A stretch of DNA of 64,000 bases, from NCBI GenBank assembly GCA_034509925.1, contig CM067535.1, forward strand, positions 1,788,501 through 1,852,500. Direction: 5' to 3'. Below are positions 6,809 through 19,560 of this stretch, one piece after another; the first letter of the stretch is position 1; each line of letters begins with the position of its first letter. This stretch comes from Hirudinaria manillensis. Its lineage: Eukaryota > Annelida > Clitellata > Hirudinida > Hirudinidae. The notes under the pieces are model-generated. The model was not told the DNA's origin. It was given only the letters and a program-made list of their open reading frames with translations, and made no database searches. The translations under genes and the position numbers were made by a program.

Positions 6809-8137
6809 ATGGCGGAGCATGTAGATTTAATGAATCAATGGCCGAAAGCTTTTATCAATAACAAAGAAACTGATCCAAAGTAATGGCTTCATGAATTTCT
6901 TGTTTAACATTTTCCATAGTAAATAACATTGTTGATGAACGAAGTGTTCCAGGCAGTTATCAGTTTTCTCCTATTGGATACATTAAGTCAATGTTCAAAG
7001 ACAAAAATGGGACCCCAAGACAAAGTGGAATTTGCACCGAAACGGCCGCAAGGCTTGAGATTGATTCGAACTTATTCAATAATCCTGATCATACAATTGA
7101 TGGCTTAGAGAATTTTTCACATGTCTGGTTAGTGATAATTAATGCTGATTGATTTATTGATCAGTAACTAATTTGCAGTTCAAATTTTTTATTTATTAAA
7201 GATTAAAAATGTTAGAGAGTAATAAACAACTAGACTGTCACAATGTTTATAGGCTGCTGTTTATCTTTCACAAGAACAACAATAGGTATACCAAGGCAAA
7301 AGTTCGACCTCCAAGACTGAATGGGAAATCTCAGGGTGTCTTTGCGACCAGAAGTCCTTACAGATTCAATCCAGTTGGTCTCACTTTAGCTCAGATCATC
7401 AAAATTGAAGGTAATGTTTTTACCAGAAGTTATAATTCATATTGATGACTGCCTTGTTCTATTTCAATGATTAGTATTGTCTTTAAAAATTGTATTACAA
7501 CTTACCAGGTAAATGAAAATAAACAGATATCTCTTCTGTTTCAGGCCATGTCATATATCTCTCAGGTGTAGATGTAATTGATGGTACTCCGGTTATAGAC
7601 ATCAAACCCTACATTGAAGAGTATGATAATCCGAAAATGCATCGTCTCTCTGTACTTCCTGACAAAGATCTCACCAAAGTCAATCATGAATTAAACGATG
7701 ATTCACGAGTTGATATCCATCTTGATAAGATTGGACCTTCAGTTAAATCTGAAGATGAGAACAAGTTATTCAAAAGCCAAAAGTTTGAAATCAAAGAAGC
7801 TGCTTGGATAAAAAGTGCGGATGTCAACTTACATTTAAATGTGCGTTTTACACCAACAGCCGAAAATCAACTTTCCAATCTTAGGAGATTTCAAAGCCAT
7901 AGTGAAGGCCTTGAAAAAAGGGAAAGTTTTTTGAATGAACTGGAAGAATTTAAAGGTTCTGTTTATCAGATATTATCGGCTGATCCAAGATCTTCATATA
8001 GGAGAAACAAATGTCAAGATAGGCTCTATTTTCTTGTTGTTGACTTTGTAAAACTGACGTGCTGGTTTGATGAAGATACTAACACGGTGGAAGTTCTCAA
8101 AGTTAATGAAGAAATGACGTCTCCAAATATTTTATAG
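6809..8137 (+). CDS. TRMO: tRNA (adenine(37)-N6)-methyltransferase TRMO
   Basis: TRMO/TrmO uses S-adenosylmethionine to N6-methylate t6A at position 37 of tRNAs that read ACY codons. Exons 6809-6879, 6957-7127, 7253-7410 and 7545-8137 join in frame to 330 residues. The N-terminal TsaA-like beta-barrel is plain: YQFSPIGYIKS, KNGTPRQSGIC, LENFSHVWLLFIFHKNN, KVRPPRLNGKSQGVFATRSP, RFNPVGLTLAQIIKIEG, YLSGVDVIDGTPVIDIKPYIEEYD. The C-terminal half keeps FTPTAENQL and SSYRRNKCQDRLYFLVVD...TCWFDED, as in animal TRMO. It is shorter than the human protein (~440), mainly in the linker between the domains. The start at 6809 is preceded by an in-frame reading of only 24 codons in exon 1, so the exact N-terminus is less certain than the rest. 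Confidence 0.93.
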
Positions 8138-9023: not shown

Positions 9024-10366
9024 ATGGCAAGTGACAAATCAGATAATATAAAGGTCGTCGTAAGGATAAGGGGCTTAATTCCAAGGTTGGTGACACCATG
9101 TTATTGCCAAAACAGTAAAATTAATTAATTATGTTGGGTATATACAGAGAAGAGGAGCAGAAATGTGTAGAGGCCTGGTTGAAAGATGGGGAAAATTCCA
9201 TTATAAAGGCAAATTCCAATGAGAAATATTCTTTTAGTAAGAAATTATTTATTTTATCACTCATTTAGATCATTTTTTTATAAATTTACATTTATCTGAA
9301 ACAGATAGAGTTTATGGTGTGAATCAACAAACAACTGAAATATTCAATGATTTGATAAATCCCATAATGGAAGATGTGATGAAAGGAATCAATGGTAAAC
9401 ACATTTTTACAGATTTTAAATAAATCAAAGTTAATCAAATCTTGATTTATGACACAAGCATTATTTACATCAAGGGGCTGTTTTTGCATATGGTCAGACA
9501 TCTTCAGGTAAGACATTCACAATGTTGGGCAAAGAGAGTTCTCCTGGTATCATCCACATGTGTATCAATAGTATCTTCAACAGGATTGAAAATGTAAGTG
9601 CATTCGTGCTTTAGATTTCGTAGTGATGAATGCATTTTGAAAATAATTGAATACTAACAAAATATTAGTGATAAAGATTTCTATAAGTGAGATGCCAACA
9701 ACTGGTAGGCCACTAAAAATAATGCAAATGTTTATCTTTGGATTATTACTTCTAATAGAATTAATTAATTTCTTAAGGTGTGTTTTGCAGTTCTGAAATA
9801 ATTCTGTTATATTGTTTATCATGGCCTTAATTACATCCATCAGTTGTTTCACTCATAAATGTGTTGTTTTTAAATATTTTTCTGATGCGCTCATGGCAGA
9901 CCCCTGATAGAGAGTACCTGGTGAGGGCATCTTACATGGAGATCTACAACGAAAACATTGTGGATCTGCTCGGAGATACGAGGAAACAGTTGAACCTCGG
10001 AGAAACATTGGTTTGTGAATGTATCTAAACTTGTCCATGAATGTATCCAAACTTATCCATGAATCATTCTAATTGATCGCTCTAGTTTGGAGTTTTCAAA
10101 TTTGTATTTCTTTTTTGGAAGACTGAGTTGATTTTTACATATTCAAAATGTCATTGCTGTGAAGATGGCCATCTTTGGTGATAATGCTATTTTGATGATG
10201 GAATTTTTAGGAAGGAGAAGTCATTGTGAAGGACTTGCAAGAAAACACTGTTAAGAACACCGAAGATTGTTTTGAGTGCCTCAAGAAGGGAGAGAGTTGG
10301 TTAATCACTGTTCATATTTAAATATCTTTTGCAGATAATTTTCTAAAATTTATATAACTTTGGTAA

Positions 10367-10447
<81 letters not shown>

Positions 10448-13400
10448 TTCCTCCTTCTAGCTATCAACTTAAATTGTGTTTAAGATCCATAAAATAACAA
10501 GAAATGCATCTTTTTTATATAGAGGCCAGGCATTACGAGCAGACAAACATGAACGACAGAAGTAGCAGATCTCACGTCATATTCAGAGTGGTGAGTGGTT
10601 TTTCTGACCAAAGATATAAGATGCTGTGTTTGTTTTGTTGAATATTGAATATGATTTATTGACTCATACTTAATATTTTTCATCTTAGATCATTGAAAGC
10701 AAATTGAGAGATGAAGTGGAGGATGATGCTTCTTTTTTTGTTTCTCAGCTGGTGAGTTTTGATGATATCTGAACATTTGAACCCTTATGTGACAAATTGG
10801 TAAAGATATGTTGTCTTGTCATGACGAGCATAGGAAGTCTTGGACTGTCATATGATTTATTATTACTTGTAACAGGCAGTGTTGTAAGGTTTGAATGAAA
10901 ATCGATATGTTGTAATGTTTTAACTCTTCCAACTTTCACTTGGTTACTCAATTTCAATTTGCTTCTTGTAAATAGAATCTTTACAATGATAGTTGGTTTG
11001 TAATAAATTATTATTTTATTTATTTATTGAGCAAGAACAAATTGGCCAGAGGACAATGTCAAATTAATTCTGTTGATTTCACCAATTAGAACCTCATCGA
11101 CTTGGCTGGGTCAGAGAAATTGAAGCAGACAGGAAATACGGGCCAGAGAATGGTGGAGGGTTCTTATATCAACAAGAGTCTTCTCACACTCTCTCAAGTT
11201 ATCTCTCAACTCTCATCAAATGCTAGGCAAGCTTTGCATTTAGTTTATAGGACATTTATGTTATTGATATGTTTTGATTTTATTTGGCACTATGTTTTCG
11301 TACTCTCATATTTTTATGCCAAGCGAGGCTCAACTTTGGAATGAAACACATAAATTTTTAGAAATGCTTGATATTATTATGGTTAACTACATCGTTGTTA
11401 TGTGAGATTTATGTGATTTTTGCAGCCACATAAGCTACAGAGATAGCAGATTGACGAGGATATTGCAGAATTCGCTTGGTGGAAACAGTAAAACGGCCTT
11501 CATTTGTGCAGTGACTCCAGTGGCTCTTGATGAAACATTATCAACTCTCAGGGTTAGACTTTTGCTTTTGAAGCTTTAAACCACATTTTTATGTGAATTA
11601 TTATAGAATAAAATTATTTACACTTTAATTTATATATTTTAATATATATTTACATTTAATTTCTAGTTTGCCATGAATGTGAGGAAGATTAAGAATAAAC
11701 CAATAATAAATGAGAAAGTGCCTGAGAGTGCCCAACTTCCAAGACTCACAAAGGTACAAAGATTTAAAAAGCTTGGGTTTCTATAAATGAATGGCAGATC
11801 ATGGCAGCATTTGATTCTTTTTCAGGAACTGGAACAAGTAAAGAAAATGCTTGCCTCTGCAGTTGAGAAAAACATGTCCTTGAACCAAACTGTTCAAGGT
11901 TACAACGTCAAGATTGCCCTTTTGGAAAATCAAATTATAGTTTCTAGCCAAACGAAGAACCTTTCTAGAGATGCTGCAAAGAAAAGGAGAGAAACTTGGT
12001 GTCCTGGAAAGGCAATGAAGCGTTTTGGTGCCTTGGATTTTCAAGCCACTTTACAGGAGGAGGATGATGATGATCTGACAGATAGTAATGATGCAATTGA
12101 GCCGACCAGGAGGTCCTGCGGGATTAACTTTCCATCCCTGAAACTTCCAAAATCAATCTTCGTCCCAATAACTCAGTCTCCGAATACGTCTGATGAAGTC
12201 GAACTGTTGCAACAGAAGTATGACTTTGAGCGTGATTTGAGGGAGAAACAAATTCAGATTCTCGAGACGGAAAATAAAAAAATGAAGAGGCAGCTGGAAA
12301 AGATCGTTGAAAATGCTCCCGGCGTTGTCCTAAAGAATCAGCTGCAGGAAGAGTTGGAGAAACAACTCGAGATTTATTTCTCAAAAGATGAGGAAAAAGT
12401 TTATTCCATGGTGTCTCCAATAAAAAAATCATTGGATGAAAATAAATTGGAATTAGAGGATAAAATATTGCAGACATCAATTCTTGAATGCCAAGAAGAC
12501 ATGTGTTTAAAATCCAAACAAGAAATTGAGTCTAGTGAAAAGAATATTCAAACTTCGTTTGTGTTGTTTGATGATGAATTAATGAAAACAGGAAAAAAGA
12601 GTCAGGAGATGATGATTCAAACTTCCTTCATGGCTGAACCTGAGATTGGTGATGAACCAGAAAAAATTGTCAACTTGGATGAAAAAATAACCCAAACCTC
12701 ATTTTCTGGAGAAGATAACATTATTTCCACAATGTCATGTAAGAACATCGAGACCAATGAAAAATTATTACAAACTTCCTTCACTGAGGGTACTGAAGGT
12801 TATTCCAAAGTGGAAACCTGTGAGACCGTATGTCAGACCTCTTTCGTGCATGATGGAGATGCAGAAGAACAAGATATTGAATCAAGTGAAAAAATGATTC
12901 AGACATCATTCTTTGTAGATGAAAGAGCCATTGAAAAGTCACTTTCCATAGATTTTGAGGAAAACGAAACTCAAACATCTTTTGTAGAGGATGACATGAA
13001 AGAGGTGAACCAACGTCTCGAAGATAAAATAAAGTCATACGAAGAAATTGTGAACGAATATGAAACTAACATAAAGTCTTATAAAGAGAAACTGGATGAT
13101 TGTGAAACAAAGATAAATGACTATGAAAGCAGAATTAGTGATTACGAATGTGAGCACCAGAGCTATGAAGACAAGCTTAGTTTAAGCATTGAAATGATGA
13201 AATCATCTGAAGTTGAGATGGAATCTTTAAAGAAAGAAATTTCAAAACTTGAGGAGAAGGTCAATTCAAAAGATCTTGAAATAGATCGATTCAAATCGCA
13301 AATTAAGGAGACAGAACATAACTTGGAAAACATCTCAGATTTGTTCTCCAACTCTAAGAGTCAAATGGATGATCTTTGCAAAGAAATTCAGACTGCCAAC

Positions 13401-16400
13401 CAGCAGATATTGGAGCTGAAAAGCAAAAATGCTAATGGCCTTGTGATTCAGGAAGATCAAAAGACTTTGATTGAAAGTCTTCAGAAACAATTATCTGAAG
13501 TGCAAGAGGAGAGGTGTGAATTCAAAAATTCCATGGATTCTACTGATGATGCCACATCAACCATTAGGAGCCAATATGAGCTGGTGGTACAAGATTTATT
13601 AGCTACTCACAAAAAAGAATTGGATGACATGAACAAGATGCACTTTGATGTTGTTGATTCTATGGAGAAAGAGAAGACCTTAGCGACAGAAAAGCTAAAT
13701 CAAGAATTGCAATCCTTGAGGAAGGAACTTGCCTATTTAGAAAGCAAATATGAAGCCATGGAGAATCTCCAGGAGGCACATCACCAGGGGGCTGAGTCTA
13801 ATGAAATCACCAAATTGGACACGTCAGTTAAAAGTGATGAAGAATTTGAAAAAATAAAAGAGGACTTTGAAGGAAAGATAAGCCAGCTCACTAGTCAAAT
13901 TGAAAGATTGAAGGAGCAGCATGAGATTGAAATTGCTGGTGCTAACAGCCTAGCATCAGATTTAGAGAAGCAGTTGGAGGAATGCAATAAGCAGTTGTTA
14001 GCCAATAGTACCACTTACAAGAAACAGCTAGAAATCTTAGAAGATGAAAATAGGATTAAGATCCAAGAATTAGAATCTGAATATTTAAAAGAAGTTGAAT
14101 ACCTCAACAAATTGCACTCTGAGGTCATAGAGGAGATCAAGAAAGAATCTATGAATCCAGATAATGAATCTGCATTAAAAGAAATCAATACATTGAGAGA
14201 TTGCCTGGATCTAGCCCAAACCGATGTTGAAAAAGCTAATCTTAGATGTTCTGCTCTTGAAACTGAACTCAACATAAAGACAGATGAATTGAAGACAACC
14301 TCTGTAAAACTCACTGATTTTGACTTAATATTGGAAAGATGCAAGTTAGATCATGAAGATGCTCTAGTATTATTAAACAGTGAGAAAGATGAACTTAAAA
14401 TGCAACTTGAAGATTGTAATAAGAAAATAGAAGAGCTCAAAGAATGTCAAAAACATGAGGCTGAAAACCTTATGGAATTACATGAGAAGGAGCTGGAAAA
14501 GATCAAAAAGGATCACCTGTTGTTTATTGAGGAGCTTGATTCTTTAAAGTCTGAAGAGATGGAGAGGAAGATAGCTGCAGAGAAAGAAAGTTTTACATTA
14601 CAATTGGATACTTTGAACAGCTCCCATAGAGCTGAGATAGAATCTGTTTCAAGACTCCATGCCGAAAAGCTGGCGTCAATTGAAAAAGATTATTTAGTGC
14701 AGATTGAACAAGTTAAAACTTCCTATGCAGAGGAATATAAAGAGAAACTTGGAAACTCTGAAATGAGCATCCAGAAGAGAATTAGTGACTTGCATGAAGA
14801 TTACGAAAGAAAACTTGACGAAAGTAACAGGGCCTACTCAGAGGTCATGGAAGATTTCAAACAAAAAGCTTTGGAACTAGACAGTCTCAGAAATGAGATT
14901 GATGAATTAAAAACCAGCAGAATGGCCACCATTGAACATCTGCAGAAAGAGCATGCACTGGAACTTGAATCAATGAAGAAGCTTCACACTGAGCAGTTGA
15001 AGGCTCTGTCTTCTGAGCACGAAAGTCTCTTAGAAAAATTCAAAAGCATCGAAGTCGATTCTACTGGCAAAGAGAATCAGGTGACAGTCCAATTTGAAAA
15101 GCAGCTTGAACATATGCAGAAAGGACATTCAGAGGAACTCGAATCTGTGAAGAGGCATCATGCTGACAGCATGAAGGCACTCTCTGCTGAGCATGAAAGT
15201 CTCTTACAGAAATTCAAAAGCATGGAAGTTGATTCTGCTAATAAAGAGAGGGAGATGACAGATCAATTTCAAAAGGAGCTTGAACATCTAAGGCAAGACC
15301 ATTCAAAGGAGATTGAATCCATGAAAAAGATTCATGCCGACAACCTGAAGGCACTCTCTGCTGAGCATGAAAGCCTCTTACAGAAATTCAAAAGCATGGA
15401 AGTTGATTCCGCTAACAAAGAAAAGGAGGTGACGGCTCAATTTAAAAAGGAGCTTGAACATCTTGAGCAGGAACATTCAAAGAAGATCGAATCCATGAAG
15501 AAGATTCACGACGACAACGTGAAGGTGCTATCTGCTGAACGTGTCAGTCTCTTAGAAAAATTCAAAAGTATGGAAGTCAATTCAACTAGCAAAGAAAAGG
15601 AAGTCATTTCTCAACTTGAAAAAGAACTAGACAGACTCAAGAAACTGCACTGCGAAGAAATAGAAAAACTGCAAAAGGACCAGAGCCTGGCATCCGACAA
15701 GCTAAGAGCCTCTTATATCAGTCAATTGGAGGAGCTACGCAAGGAAAGGGACGAACAAGAATTGCTCCAAGGTTATATGAAGACTCAATTCCTGCAGCTT
15801 TTAGATTCTTTCCAGATCGATATCGCCAGCGGTTTGGCCGGAAAAATGAATCCGACCAGGGAGATGTTGCTCGATAACCTTTTTGCCGGTCTACATAAGT
15901 TCATAAGTTCTAAGTTGGAGCATGAACAAGAATTGATGGGAGAACTGAAGAAGGTGAACGAGGATTACATGATAGAGATGGAGAAAAGTTCCCAACTTCC
16001 GCTCGAGTTTGTCCAGAGAGAACAGCAACTGAAGGTGGAATTCCTGGAGAAAGAGGCACAGTTGAAAGATGAATTAGAAAAATGCAGGGCTGATCAAGTC
16101 AGGTACAGAGAGGGTGAGTGAACTATTACAGAATTGCAGGAATTGTATTTATATGATGTTGTCACATTCTTTTACAGTATAAACATTGACATTAACATTG
16201 ATCTAAGTTCAAACTGATGCATGTTCTCCTAGCAATTTTTCAGTACAGCAATTTTTTTGTGAATGTATTTTTGCCTGAAATATTTGACAAATTCATTCTT
16301 CTGGAAAATTATCCCTAATTTAAGATCTATAATTTTTCCAGGAAATATTAATGTTTTCATTTTTATCAAACATCGTTATCATGACAGGTCGAGACAAAGC

Positions 16401-18073: not shown

Positions 18074-18532
18074 TTATTTTTTCCTCAAAGTTGATGCAAC
18101 CTCTGACATGTCTTTGGTATCAACGTTGTTAACAAAAGAGGAATTTTTGAATACTCTAATGTGGATCACACTGCAGTGTCTTGAACCAAATTCACTACCA
18201 CAATCTCCATTTACCTTCCTCAACTCGTCTGTCATTGTCAATGTGCCAGTCTTCACAGAAACTTCCAACAACGGTTCTAGTTCAAGCTTTAGCTCCAGGG
18301 CGAGGTTTACAGTTCGGTCTACGGCAGCACCAAGTCCGTGCAAAAATATTTCGGAGTAGCCGGATTCTAACAATTTTAGAGAGCGCTTCTTTTGAGCCAT
18401 AAAGTTGGTTTTCCGGCCCATGTATATATCATTTTTTCGCTTCATCCATTTGCCTGGAACACATTTTATTAGTTCGTACTCCTCCGCATCTACGGCAAGG
18501 ACAGGATCCTGGACATCTGCAGGCGTTGCCAT
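18074..18532 (-). CDS. POP7: Ribonuclease P/MRP protein subunit p20 (POP7)
   Basis: Rpp20/Pop7 is an Alba-fold protein that pairs with Rpp25/Pop6 on the P3 stem of RNase P and RNase MRP RNA, for tRNA 5' and rRNA processing in the nucleolus. This uninterrupted 152-residue frame shows the family pattern NDIYMGRKTNFMAQKKRSLKL, then YSEIFLHGLGAAVDRTVNLAL with the conserved HGLG, an LxVxVKTGTLTMTDEL strand and SVIHIRVFKN, close to the usual length (~140). The ATG at 18532 is in a good context (ACAATGG). The GTAC after TTTATTTAG just upstream could be the end of a 5' UTR intron. It faces the kinesin gene tail to tail. Confidence 0.9.
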   Translation of the reverse strand: MATPADVQDPVLAVDAEEYELIKCVPGKWMKRKNDIYMGRKTNFMAQKKRSLKLLESGYSEIFLHGLGAAVDRTVNLALELKLELEPLLEVSVKTGTLTMTDELRKVNGDCGSEFGSRHCSVIHIRVFKNSSFVNNVDTKDMSEVASTLRKK

Positions 18533-19149
18533 TGTGGTACCTAAATAAACGATGTTAAATATGATAAATAATGGAGCTATAATTTAGTACGTGTGAATGC
18601 GGTGAATATCGAACTAAAATACCATACGAGGTGAAGGGAGAGCGATAAGAGAGGATGTTTACAAATGAATGTTTATTTTTAGTAAAATGTGGTTTGAGTT
18701 TATGTTTTGTGTTTATTTTTAATAAAATGAAACTAAACACTCTAAATAAAACTACCTAGTAGAATTTTAACATGCAATAAAATGCAATTTTTGTAATGAG
18801 TATCATATGCTCAATTCTTTCACATTTACAGATTCTGATTTGCTGATCCTTTTTTGATTATAACTATACATCTATGTAACGCAGACAAAAGTTTAAAATT
18901 AACATTTAAAATAAGATAGACTAAATATAATTAATCAGGACATATTAATAATTTGAAATAAAAAGAAGAAATTTACTTTATTTTTTACATCGTAATTAAT
19001 TACTATTAAATTAAATTTATTTTCTTTCAATTTGATTAATATATAGGATCTTTTATCGCGATAGAGCAATTTGAACCATCTAACTAATTATCAAAAGCTT
19101 ACATTTCATCAAACTAATTCTAAATAGTTTCTGATCATATAATCATACA
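18533..19149. other. Intergenic region between POP7 and the La-motif gene
   Basis: This is AT-rich spacer between two divergently transcribed genes, so it probably holds both promoters. I see no coding exon or structured RNA. Confidence 0.5.
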
Positions 19150-19560
19150 ATGAATCATTCAAGCAATGACACACCAGAGGTCATATTTTCATATGTTCCT
19201 TATCACTTGATTACGTTTTGGGAGACAATACAGCGCCAGATTGAGTTTTACTTCTCGGACGAAAATCTTAGTTATGATTGGTTCATGCACCAAAATATGG
19301 ATAACGAAGGATGGATTGCGATAGACGTGATAATGAAATTCAGACGAATAGAAGCTATGACGAAAGATGAGGAACATATCGTAACGGCTATGAATAACAG
19401 CCTTCAAGTAGAATTGTCTCCATGTTTGAAGAAACTGAGGAAAAGGATAAACGTGTCGACGGGCCCAAACTGCCAGAATCCCTATGATTCTGACAGCTAC
19501 CAACCGCAACCTTTCTTGGTCTATCTAGTACCAGTAATCGTGCCTCATACGTCATTTTAG
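19150..19560 (+). CDS. Stand-alone La-motif (HTH La-type) protein
   Basis: La motifs bind RNA 3' ends or poly(A) and start La and La-related proteins. This single uninterrupted frame of 136 residues carries a whole La motif at about residues 25-100: QRQIEFYFSDENLSYDWFMHQ, then NEGWIAIDVIMKFRRIEAMT and HIVTAMNNSLQVELS...KKLRKR. The conserved Q-I-E-F-Y-F-S-D-N-L core and the EGW...IMKF helix-wing pattern are closest to genuine La. No RRM follows: the protein stops about 35 residues after the motif with a Pro/Tyr-rich tail. AATAAA at 19722 supports a transcript. It may be an intronless retrocopy that lost its RRM or a dedicated small La protein. The frame is intact, which argues against a decayed pseudogene. 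Confidence 0.75.
   Translation: MNHSSNDTPEVIFSYVPYHLITFWETIQRQIEFYFSDENLSYDWFMHQNMDNEGWIAIDVIMKFRRIEAMTKDEEHIVTAMNNSLQVELSPCLKKLRKRINVSTGPNCQNPYDSDSYQPQPFLVYLVPVIVPHTSF

Follow-up and report, generated by a model that had tools for sequence, protein, structure and literature searches.

The window analysed here, a 64,000-nucleotide stretch of a Hirudinaria manillensis contig, carries on its forward strand a gene that is CENP-E by its motor. In the splice prediction, a CENP-E-like motor domain of about eleven coding exons spans 9024-11717 (+), with exons 1 to 6 at 9024-9085, 9148-9236, 9305-9394, 9475-9593, 9900-10010 and 10211-10295 and exons 7 to 11 at 10523-10590, 10689-10751, 11090-~11224, ~11426-11552 and 11667-11717. 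The junction 10010/10211 is the second-ranked splice choice; the junction ~11224/~11426, used in the query for structure comparison, was set by hand and lacks a GT-AG pair. One of these exons has a Kinesin Pfam match, and when the spliced motor was compared with solved structures, the highest scores went to a pair of CENP-E motors, at 313.5 and 311 bits, ahead of KIF4 at 232.4 bits (best 60 of 153 matches), bearing out the CENP-E-like identity given in an earlier note made from the letters of this stretch. By its sequence, the leech protein would be expected to function at the kinetochore. An intron of the motor region contains TAT repeated 26 times (10367-10445), and the neighbouring coding stretches correspond to TrmO (7523-8134, +), Rpp20/Alba (18074-18583, -) and a La domain (19135-19557, +). 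Among telomere-type repeats, (TTAGGG)4 occurs many times in the genome and (TTAGG)5 is absent.

The exons upstream join in frame into the motor domain under the splice model, and a large exon of 4.3 kb (11826-16118, +; acceptor 11826 in the top-scoring splice, 3' end near 16118 approximate, reading frame open at 11787-16121) encodes a neck coil, an Aurora-type site, short coils, an array of QT motifs and a long stalk. This exon had no match among solved structures, and two protein queries of the genome (4 and 3 candidates scored) revealed no second array-bearing or CENP-E-like gene. Protein searches found a single relative (P0001, 1309 aa) among the matches listed of 7988, 983 and 46 scored candidates; it is 66% identical over 1287 aligned positions and has five array sites, and the conservation of the array described below rests on these two proteins.

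The Aurora-type site, RRETWCPGK (exon residues 67-75; 11985-12011, +), is invariant in the relative. The usual PP1 RVxF pattern carries Val or Ile at a position that is Glu in both proteins, and the Aurora site at RRETW may persist here without PP1 docking. The peptide is probably the counterpart of human Thr422-Trp423, where Thr422 is a site for Aurora A/B beside the PP1-binding Trp423 (PMC10474297). Further along, the stalk holds a 174-nt tandem repeat at 14932-15601 (3.9 copies, 81% matches) with units of 58 residues, and the relative is short of 58 residues, or one unit, at this place. A patch of the stalk at 15777-15887 (exon residues 1331-1367) is identical in the relative at 36 of 37 positions, as compared to 60 of 93 aligned positions for residues 1180-1330 and 56 of 77 for residues 1368-1444.

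A regular array of QTS-centred octapeptides

Between the short coils and the stalk, the open reading frame at 11787-16121 (+; 1444 codons) contains eight QTS[F/I] motifs, all in frame, of which seven read QTSF and the first reads QTSI. Their Gln codons lie at 12471, 12549, 12618, 12693, 12771, 12834, 12900 and 12972, separating the sites by 26, 23, 25, 26, 21, 22 and 24 residues. Neither the number nor the regularity of the copies is expected by chance: shuffling the exon protein 20,000 times yielded a mean of 0.0097 QTSF and a maximum of two, versus the seven observed, and gaps as even as these (a range of 5 or less) arose in only 3 of 403,609 random placements of the six inner sites. The claim of eight regularly spaced motifs, 21-26 residues apart, thus stands, with two corrections to its location: a translation begun at 12460 is out of frame, the octapeptides (positions -4 to +3, counting Gln as 0) running from 12459 to 12983, and the residues given as 560-730 become 548-715 for the Gln residues in the gene model, in which one junction was set by hand.

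Aligning the eight octapeptides yields the consensus [DE]-K-x-[ILT]-Q-T-S-F. Positions 0, +1 and +2 are Q, T and S in every site (4.32 bits each), position +3 reads IFFFFFFF in sites 1 to 8, and position -4 reads DEEEEEEE, such that an acidic residue is present in all eight, a feature that had been overlooked; F+3 and the acidic -4 each hold 3.7-3.8 bits. Information falls to 2.4-2.5 bits at -1 (LIITLCIT; Ile, Leu or Cys in six sites, Ile alone in three, Thr in two) and to 1.8 bits at -2 (INMILVME; aromatic in none), and position -7, which is mostly Glu, is as informative as -3 (KKMKKTKN; Lys in five, otherwise Met, Thr or Asn). The motif had been described as mostly K-x-[I/T/L]-Q-T-S-F, which is loose, with Lys in only five of the eight sites and Cys as well as Ile, Leu or Thr at -1. 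Site 2 continues into F-V-L-F-D-D (12558-12575), which fits an ABBA-type pattern; the relative has F-I-V-F-D-N, and the resemblance may be due to chance.

Sites 1 to 4, DKILQTSI (12459-12482, +), EKNIQTSF (12537-12560, +), EMMIQTSF (12606-12629, +) and EKITQTSF (12681-12704, +), are identical in the relative from -4 to +3. Site 8, ENETQTSF (12960-12983, +), aligns with the relative's fifth site, ENSLQTSF, and shares its right flank, but the left flank of that fifth site is the left flank of site 5, EKLLQTSF (12759-12782, +). Sites 6 and 7, ETVCQTSF (12822-12845, +) and EKMIQTSF (12888-12911, +), are without counterpart. The relative lacks residues 325-391 of the leech exon protein, exactly 67 residues with three sites; this absence, and the joining of the site-5 and site-8 flanks, imply that copy number changed in register.

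Across the five aligned sites, 38 of 40 octapeptide positions are identical as compared to 36 of 68 in the linkers (p=1.5e-6), and positions 0 to +3 are identical throughout (20 of 20). Loss of the QT core in close relatives had been named as evidence against LC8 docking; in this one relative the core is kept at all five sites (Gln0 with Thr or Val at +1 in 8/8 leech sites and 5/5 of the relative's), with the three further leech copies having no counterpart there. Ser+2 is present in 13 of 13 sites of the two proteins and Phe+3 in 11 of 13, the exceptions being site 1, with Ile in both.

Repeats of this kind could also be a passive spacer, that is, an old tandem repeat without a partner, whose sequence is kept by copy turnover. 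The array does have a duplicated look: apart from the joined flanks in the relative and its missing 67 residues, the left flank of site 7 is like that of site 2, the copy number differs (eight versus five), and the array serines are encoded by TCN in 8/8 cases even though 43 of 131 Ser codons exon-wide are AGY (chance 0.04), which fits the descent of the copies from one copy. However, turnover would homogenise linkers and silent sites too, yet the octapeptides outlast their linkers, and third codon positions differ by 0.67 per copy pair, a level within the range for free synonymous choice (0.59, 95% 0.46-0.68), as against 0.03 for first and second positions. We therefore consider a spacer maintained by turnover to be improbable. 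Because third positions are as diverse as free choice allows, selection has acted on the peptide, and a recent DNA repeat, as the source of the array, is ruled out by this saturation. The pattern in the sequence points to an old duplication, after which the peptide has been under selection for a long time.

The predicted hinge and its possible readers

AlphaFold2, run on exon residues 1-480 with an alignment of two sequences, predicted helices at residues 4-71, 135-176, 180-234 and 396-479, along with short ones at 237-240, 365-371 and 379-385, the last two being of low confidence. Between helices 180-234 and 396-479 is a predicted disordered spacer (exon residues 231-397; 12477-12977, +) with pLDDT<50, which, given an alignment only two sequences deep, is weak evidence of disorder. 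The following helix, with pLDDT of 87-98 in blocks of 401-480, serves as an internal control for the low confidence of the spacer; helix 180-234, directly before the array, does so less well at only about 53-64, and an earlier helix has values of up to 86. Predicted helix leaves sites 2 to 6 free but contains all of site 1 (helix 180-234, with a block confidence of about 61) and half of each of sites 7 and 8, site 7 in a short helix of low confidence and the second half of site 8 in 396-479. Placement inside a confident, continuous coiled coil had been named as evidence against LC8 docking; no such coil covers the array, with the reservation that a helix of intermediate confidence encloses site 1 and that sites 7 and 8 are half overlapped, and we reject the continuous coil only at the strength of this one two-sequence run. 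The model suggests that the array region is probably a disordered hinge between the short coils and the main stalk. The flanking helices could dimerise.

The most likely role of the array is that of a multivalent docking array of short linear motifs on a parallel CENP-E dimer, and the partner that had been proposed is LC8. The natural LC8 motif is described as [D/S] at -4, K at -3, any residue at -2, [T/V/I] at -1, Q at 0, [T/V] at +1 and [D/E] at +2, in disordered settings that often have a flanking coiled coil (PMC3078936). The array comes near to this description, with Q0 and T+1 invariant, [D/E] at -4 in 8/8 sites, Lys at -3 in 5/8, and Thr or Ile at -1 in 5/8 (Thr, Val or Ile in 3/5 of the relative's sites), and with octapeptides that are kept, while linkers drift, in a low-confidence stretch between helices. 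Its columns agree with the rules derived in PMC6607443 (a large or basic -3, a polar or acidic -4, and neither an aromatic residue at -2 nor a hydrophobic one at +2), which permit the residues found at -4, -2 and +2 and, for the most part, at -3. The argument from Lys at -3 is weaker than had been stated: a strong Lys preference there is without support in the peptide collection of PMC5746249.

The same genome has a complete LC8 reading frame (locus L002), and two of its exons encode a dynein intermediate chain with the canonical LC8 site YNKETQTP. These two exons (loci L004 and L005, about 3.5 kb apart) are similar, both read YNKETQTPKEN, and represent either tandem genes or alternative exons.

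The leech sites share a number of properties with established multivalent LC8 clients, among which Drosophila ASCIZ, GKAP and Panoramix have QT-anchored octapeptides of unequal quality along a disordered chain; Nup159, Chica and Bassoon are also named as such clients (PMC5963919). Linker lengths are also similar: spans of 12 and of 16 residues occur in dASCIZ (PMC10046861), and those in the leech are 13-18 when octapeptides are delimited as -5 to +2. Unlike those clients, the leech array has a common Ser+2 and nearly always Phe+3, a more regular spacing, mostly Ile or Leu at -1, and a kinesin as its carrier; by comparison, the seven dASCIZ peptides have little in common beyond T[Q/M]T (PMC5963919, Table 2). 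Judged by sequence, the sites could plausibly be LC8 ligands of low affinity, in need of avidity to bind. Poor sites can be helped by their surroundings: the LCA5 CQS site, not validated as a peptide, binds within a fragment (PMC9481538), and in GKAP, whose IQV/VQV pair binds LC8 at 0.29 uM, flanks from -10 to +4 matter (PMC12797016).

To score the sites, we built a crude matrix from 22 published binders, comprising 11 of 12 binder rows of Table 1 (one duplicate out) and 5 of 7 binder rows of Table 2 (two viral out) of PMC6607443 and six of the seven dASCIZ peptides (TMT left out). Against 27 non-binders (18 rows out of 31 and 9 out of 12, after removal of rows that were duplicate, shifted, short or lacked QT, and of a viral and a phage row), its leave-one-out AUC was 0.86. 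The eight sites score 6.3-10.5 bits, within the range of weak binders (6.4-11.6, all 4 rows) save at its lower edge but overlapping the non-binders (0.1-14.3), as compared to 7.6-21.8 for binders and 15.0 for the genome's own dynein intermediate chain site; for the relative's own versions the values are 4.9 bits at site 3 and 7.4 bits at site 5. All eight are within the top 13 of 1437 exon octapeptides, a ranking to be read with the matrix's reward for any QT. After six unusual binders were added (AUC 0.79), the sites score 5.2-11.8 bits, and four of the eight beat 74-81% of non-binders. Low LC8 scores at all sites had been named as further evidence against LC8 docking; the values obtained are ambiguous on this point.

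LC8 buries position -1 and at +2 prefers Pro, Asp or Glu (PMC6607443). Thr or Val is present at -1 in two of the eight sites versus 22 of 22 binders (p=4.7e-5, for a binder set biased toward TQT), and of the four QT peptides in Tables 1-2 of PMC6607443 that carry Ile or Leu at this position (DAZL, FMN2, PLK1 and one plant-virus peptide), none bound; the FMN2 non-binder AKSIQTS resembles sites 2 and 7. In addition, Ser+2 is fixed despite not being a preferred residue, Phe+3 and position -7 fall outside the LC8 octapeptide of -5 to +2, and site 1 is part of a predicted helix. The reading of the array as an LC8 array is supported in part: the QT anchor, the acidic -4, the frequent Lys at -3 and the setting speak for it, and -1, Ser+2, Phe+3 and the scores against it.

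That Ser+2 and Phe+3 are fixed while -1 varies indicates flanking contacts, another reader, or a phosphosite at Ser+2, and the doubt that had been voiced about an invariant Ser-Phe, which goes beyond the LC8 consensus, was well founded. A different partner may read [DE]-K-x-hydrophobic-Q-T-S-F, with Ser+2 and Phe+3 as its anchors, in which case the array, again acting by avidity, would bring a protein of the kinetochore or the spindle to the hinge. Information peaks at Q0, T+1, S+2, F+3 and -4 and falls at -1 and -2, and this pattern, in 13/13 sites for Ser+2 and 11/13 for Phe+3, is unlike the constraint on LC8 sites (PMC6607443). On the other hand, the conserved block of -4 to +3 nearly coincides with the LC8 footprint of -5 to +2, and no known domain with such a preference was found: none of the open-licence papers listed (30 of 55), by title or start of abstract, concerns a QTSF docking motif, and PMC12057147 has no mention of QTS, CENP, kinesin, KIF, TQTD or IQT. 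We regard a partner other than LC8 as somewhat unlikely.

Alternatively, the array might serve phosphorylation, with a mitotic kinase of the Mps1 or Plk1 type charging the hinge stepwise at Ser+2 and thereby altering hinge extension, autoinhibition or partner binding. Ser+2 is invariant, though LC8 needs no Ser there, and the preference of these kinases for E, D, N or Q at -2 (PMC3076450) agrees with all eight sites, as Gln0 stands two residues before Ser+2, and is weakly specific. But this preference is loose (11 of 19 Mps1 sites; PMC3076450), it is Gln rather than an acidic residue that is fixed in all 13 copies, and Thr+1, Phe+3 and the acidic -4 are together left unexplained, such that an array of phosphosites alone appears quite improbable. 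Less probable still is a combination of the two, an LC8 ladder at up to eight places with Ser+2 as a switch of the Mps1 or Polo type that opens it; were it true, phosphorylation and copy number would set hinge stiffness and any coupling to dynein. Readings resembling PP1 RVxF, calcineurin or PIP-box motifs did not fit, judged only by eye against the usual patterns.

An LC8 ladder on the CENP-E dimer is the reading that we favour, tentatively and at somewhat less than even chances, and several LC8 dimers on the CENP-E motor make a fair hypothesis. Taken singly, the LC8 sites would bind weakly, with the array relying on avidity: two parallel CENP-E chains would offer matched sites to LC8 dimers, which could clamp the chains as a ladder, leaving the hinge region stiffened or kept dimeric. 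Each of these steps, from LC8 binding and in-register clamping to hinge stiffening, goes beyond the motif, and a link of the array to dynein would be a further step; client-bound LC8 is not known to recruit dynein by itself. The dynein/dynactin subunits LIC1 and p150 do co-precipitate with human CENP-E (PMC10474297).

Relation to other kinetochore arrays and significance

The MELT consensus is M-[DE]-[LIMV]-[TS], which has 0 matches in the 1444-residue frame. The MELT repeats of KNL1/Spc105 are like the leech array in that they form a series of short motifs in a kinetochore protein, where the number of copies is of consequence (PMC7292645), and differ in having another motif, one absent from the leech exon. 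The Astrin:SKAP complex also resides at the kinetochore and may include LC8, and CENP-E has been implicated in its recruitment (PMC4843017), which connects LC8 with CENP-E only indirectly; a peptide of Astrin (SPAG5) binds LC8 (PMC6607443). In this complex the LC8 motif is in Astrin and not in CENP-E. Vertebrate CENP-E, a kinesin-7, has a motor, a long stalk and probably an RRxTW-type Aurora/PP1 site in common with the leech protein; the published excerpts covered here describe no such array for it. The open-licence papers listed, as judged by title or start of abstract, yielded no account of LC8 sites within CENP-E, and neither did the excerpts of PMC4843017. The leech CENP-E bears a motif array of a kind known elsewhere, in a protein for which this search found none described.

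CENP-E and dynein move in opposite directions, and how the two motors share a single kinetochore is still unsolved. A docking array conserved in the hinge that follows the motor would make the problem directly accessible to experiment, with the eight sites versus five found in nature serving as a dose series. Should LC8 be the partner, this would be a kinesin bearing a ladder of dynein light chains; if it is not, an undescribed reader of QTSF may exist at the CENP-E motor.
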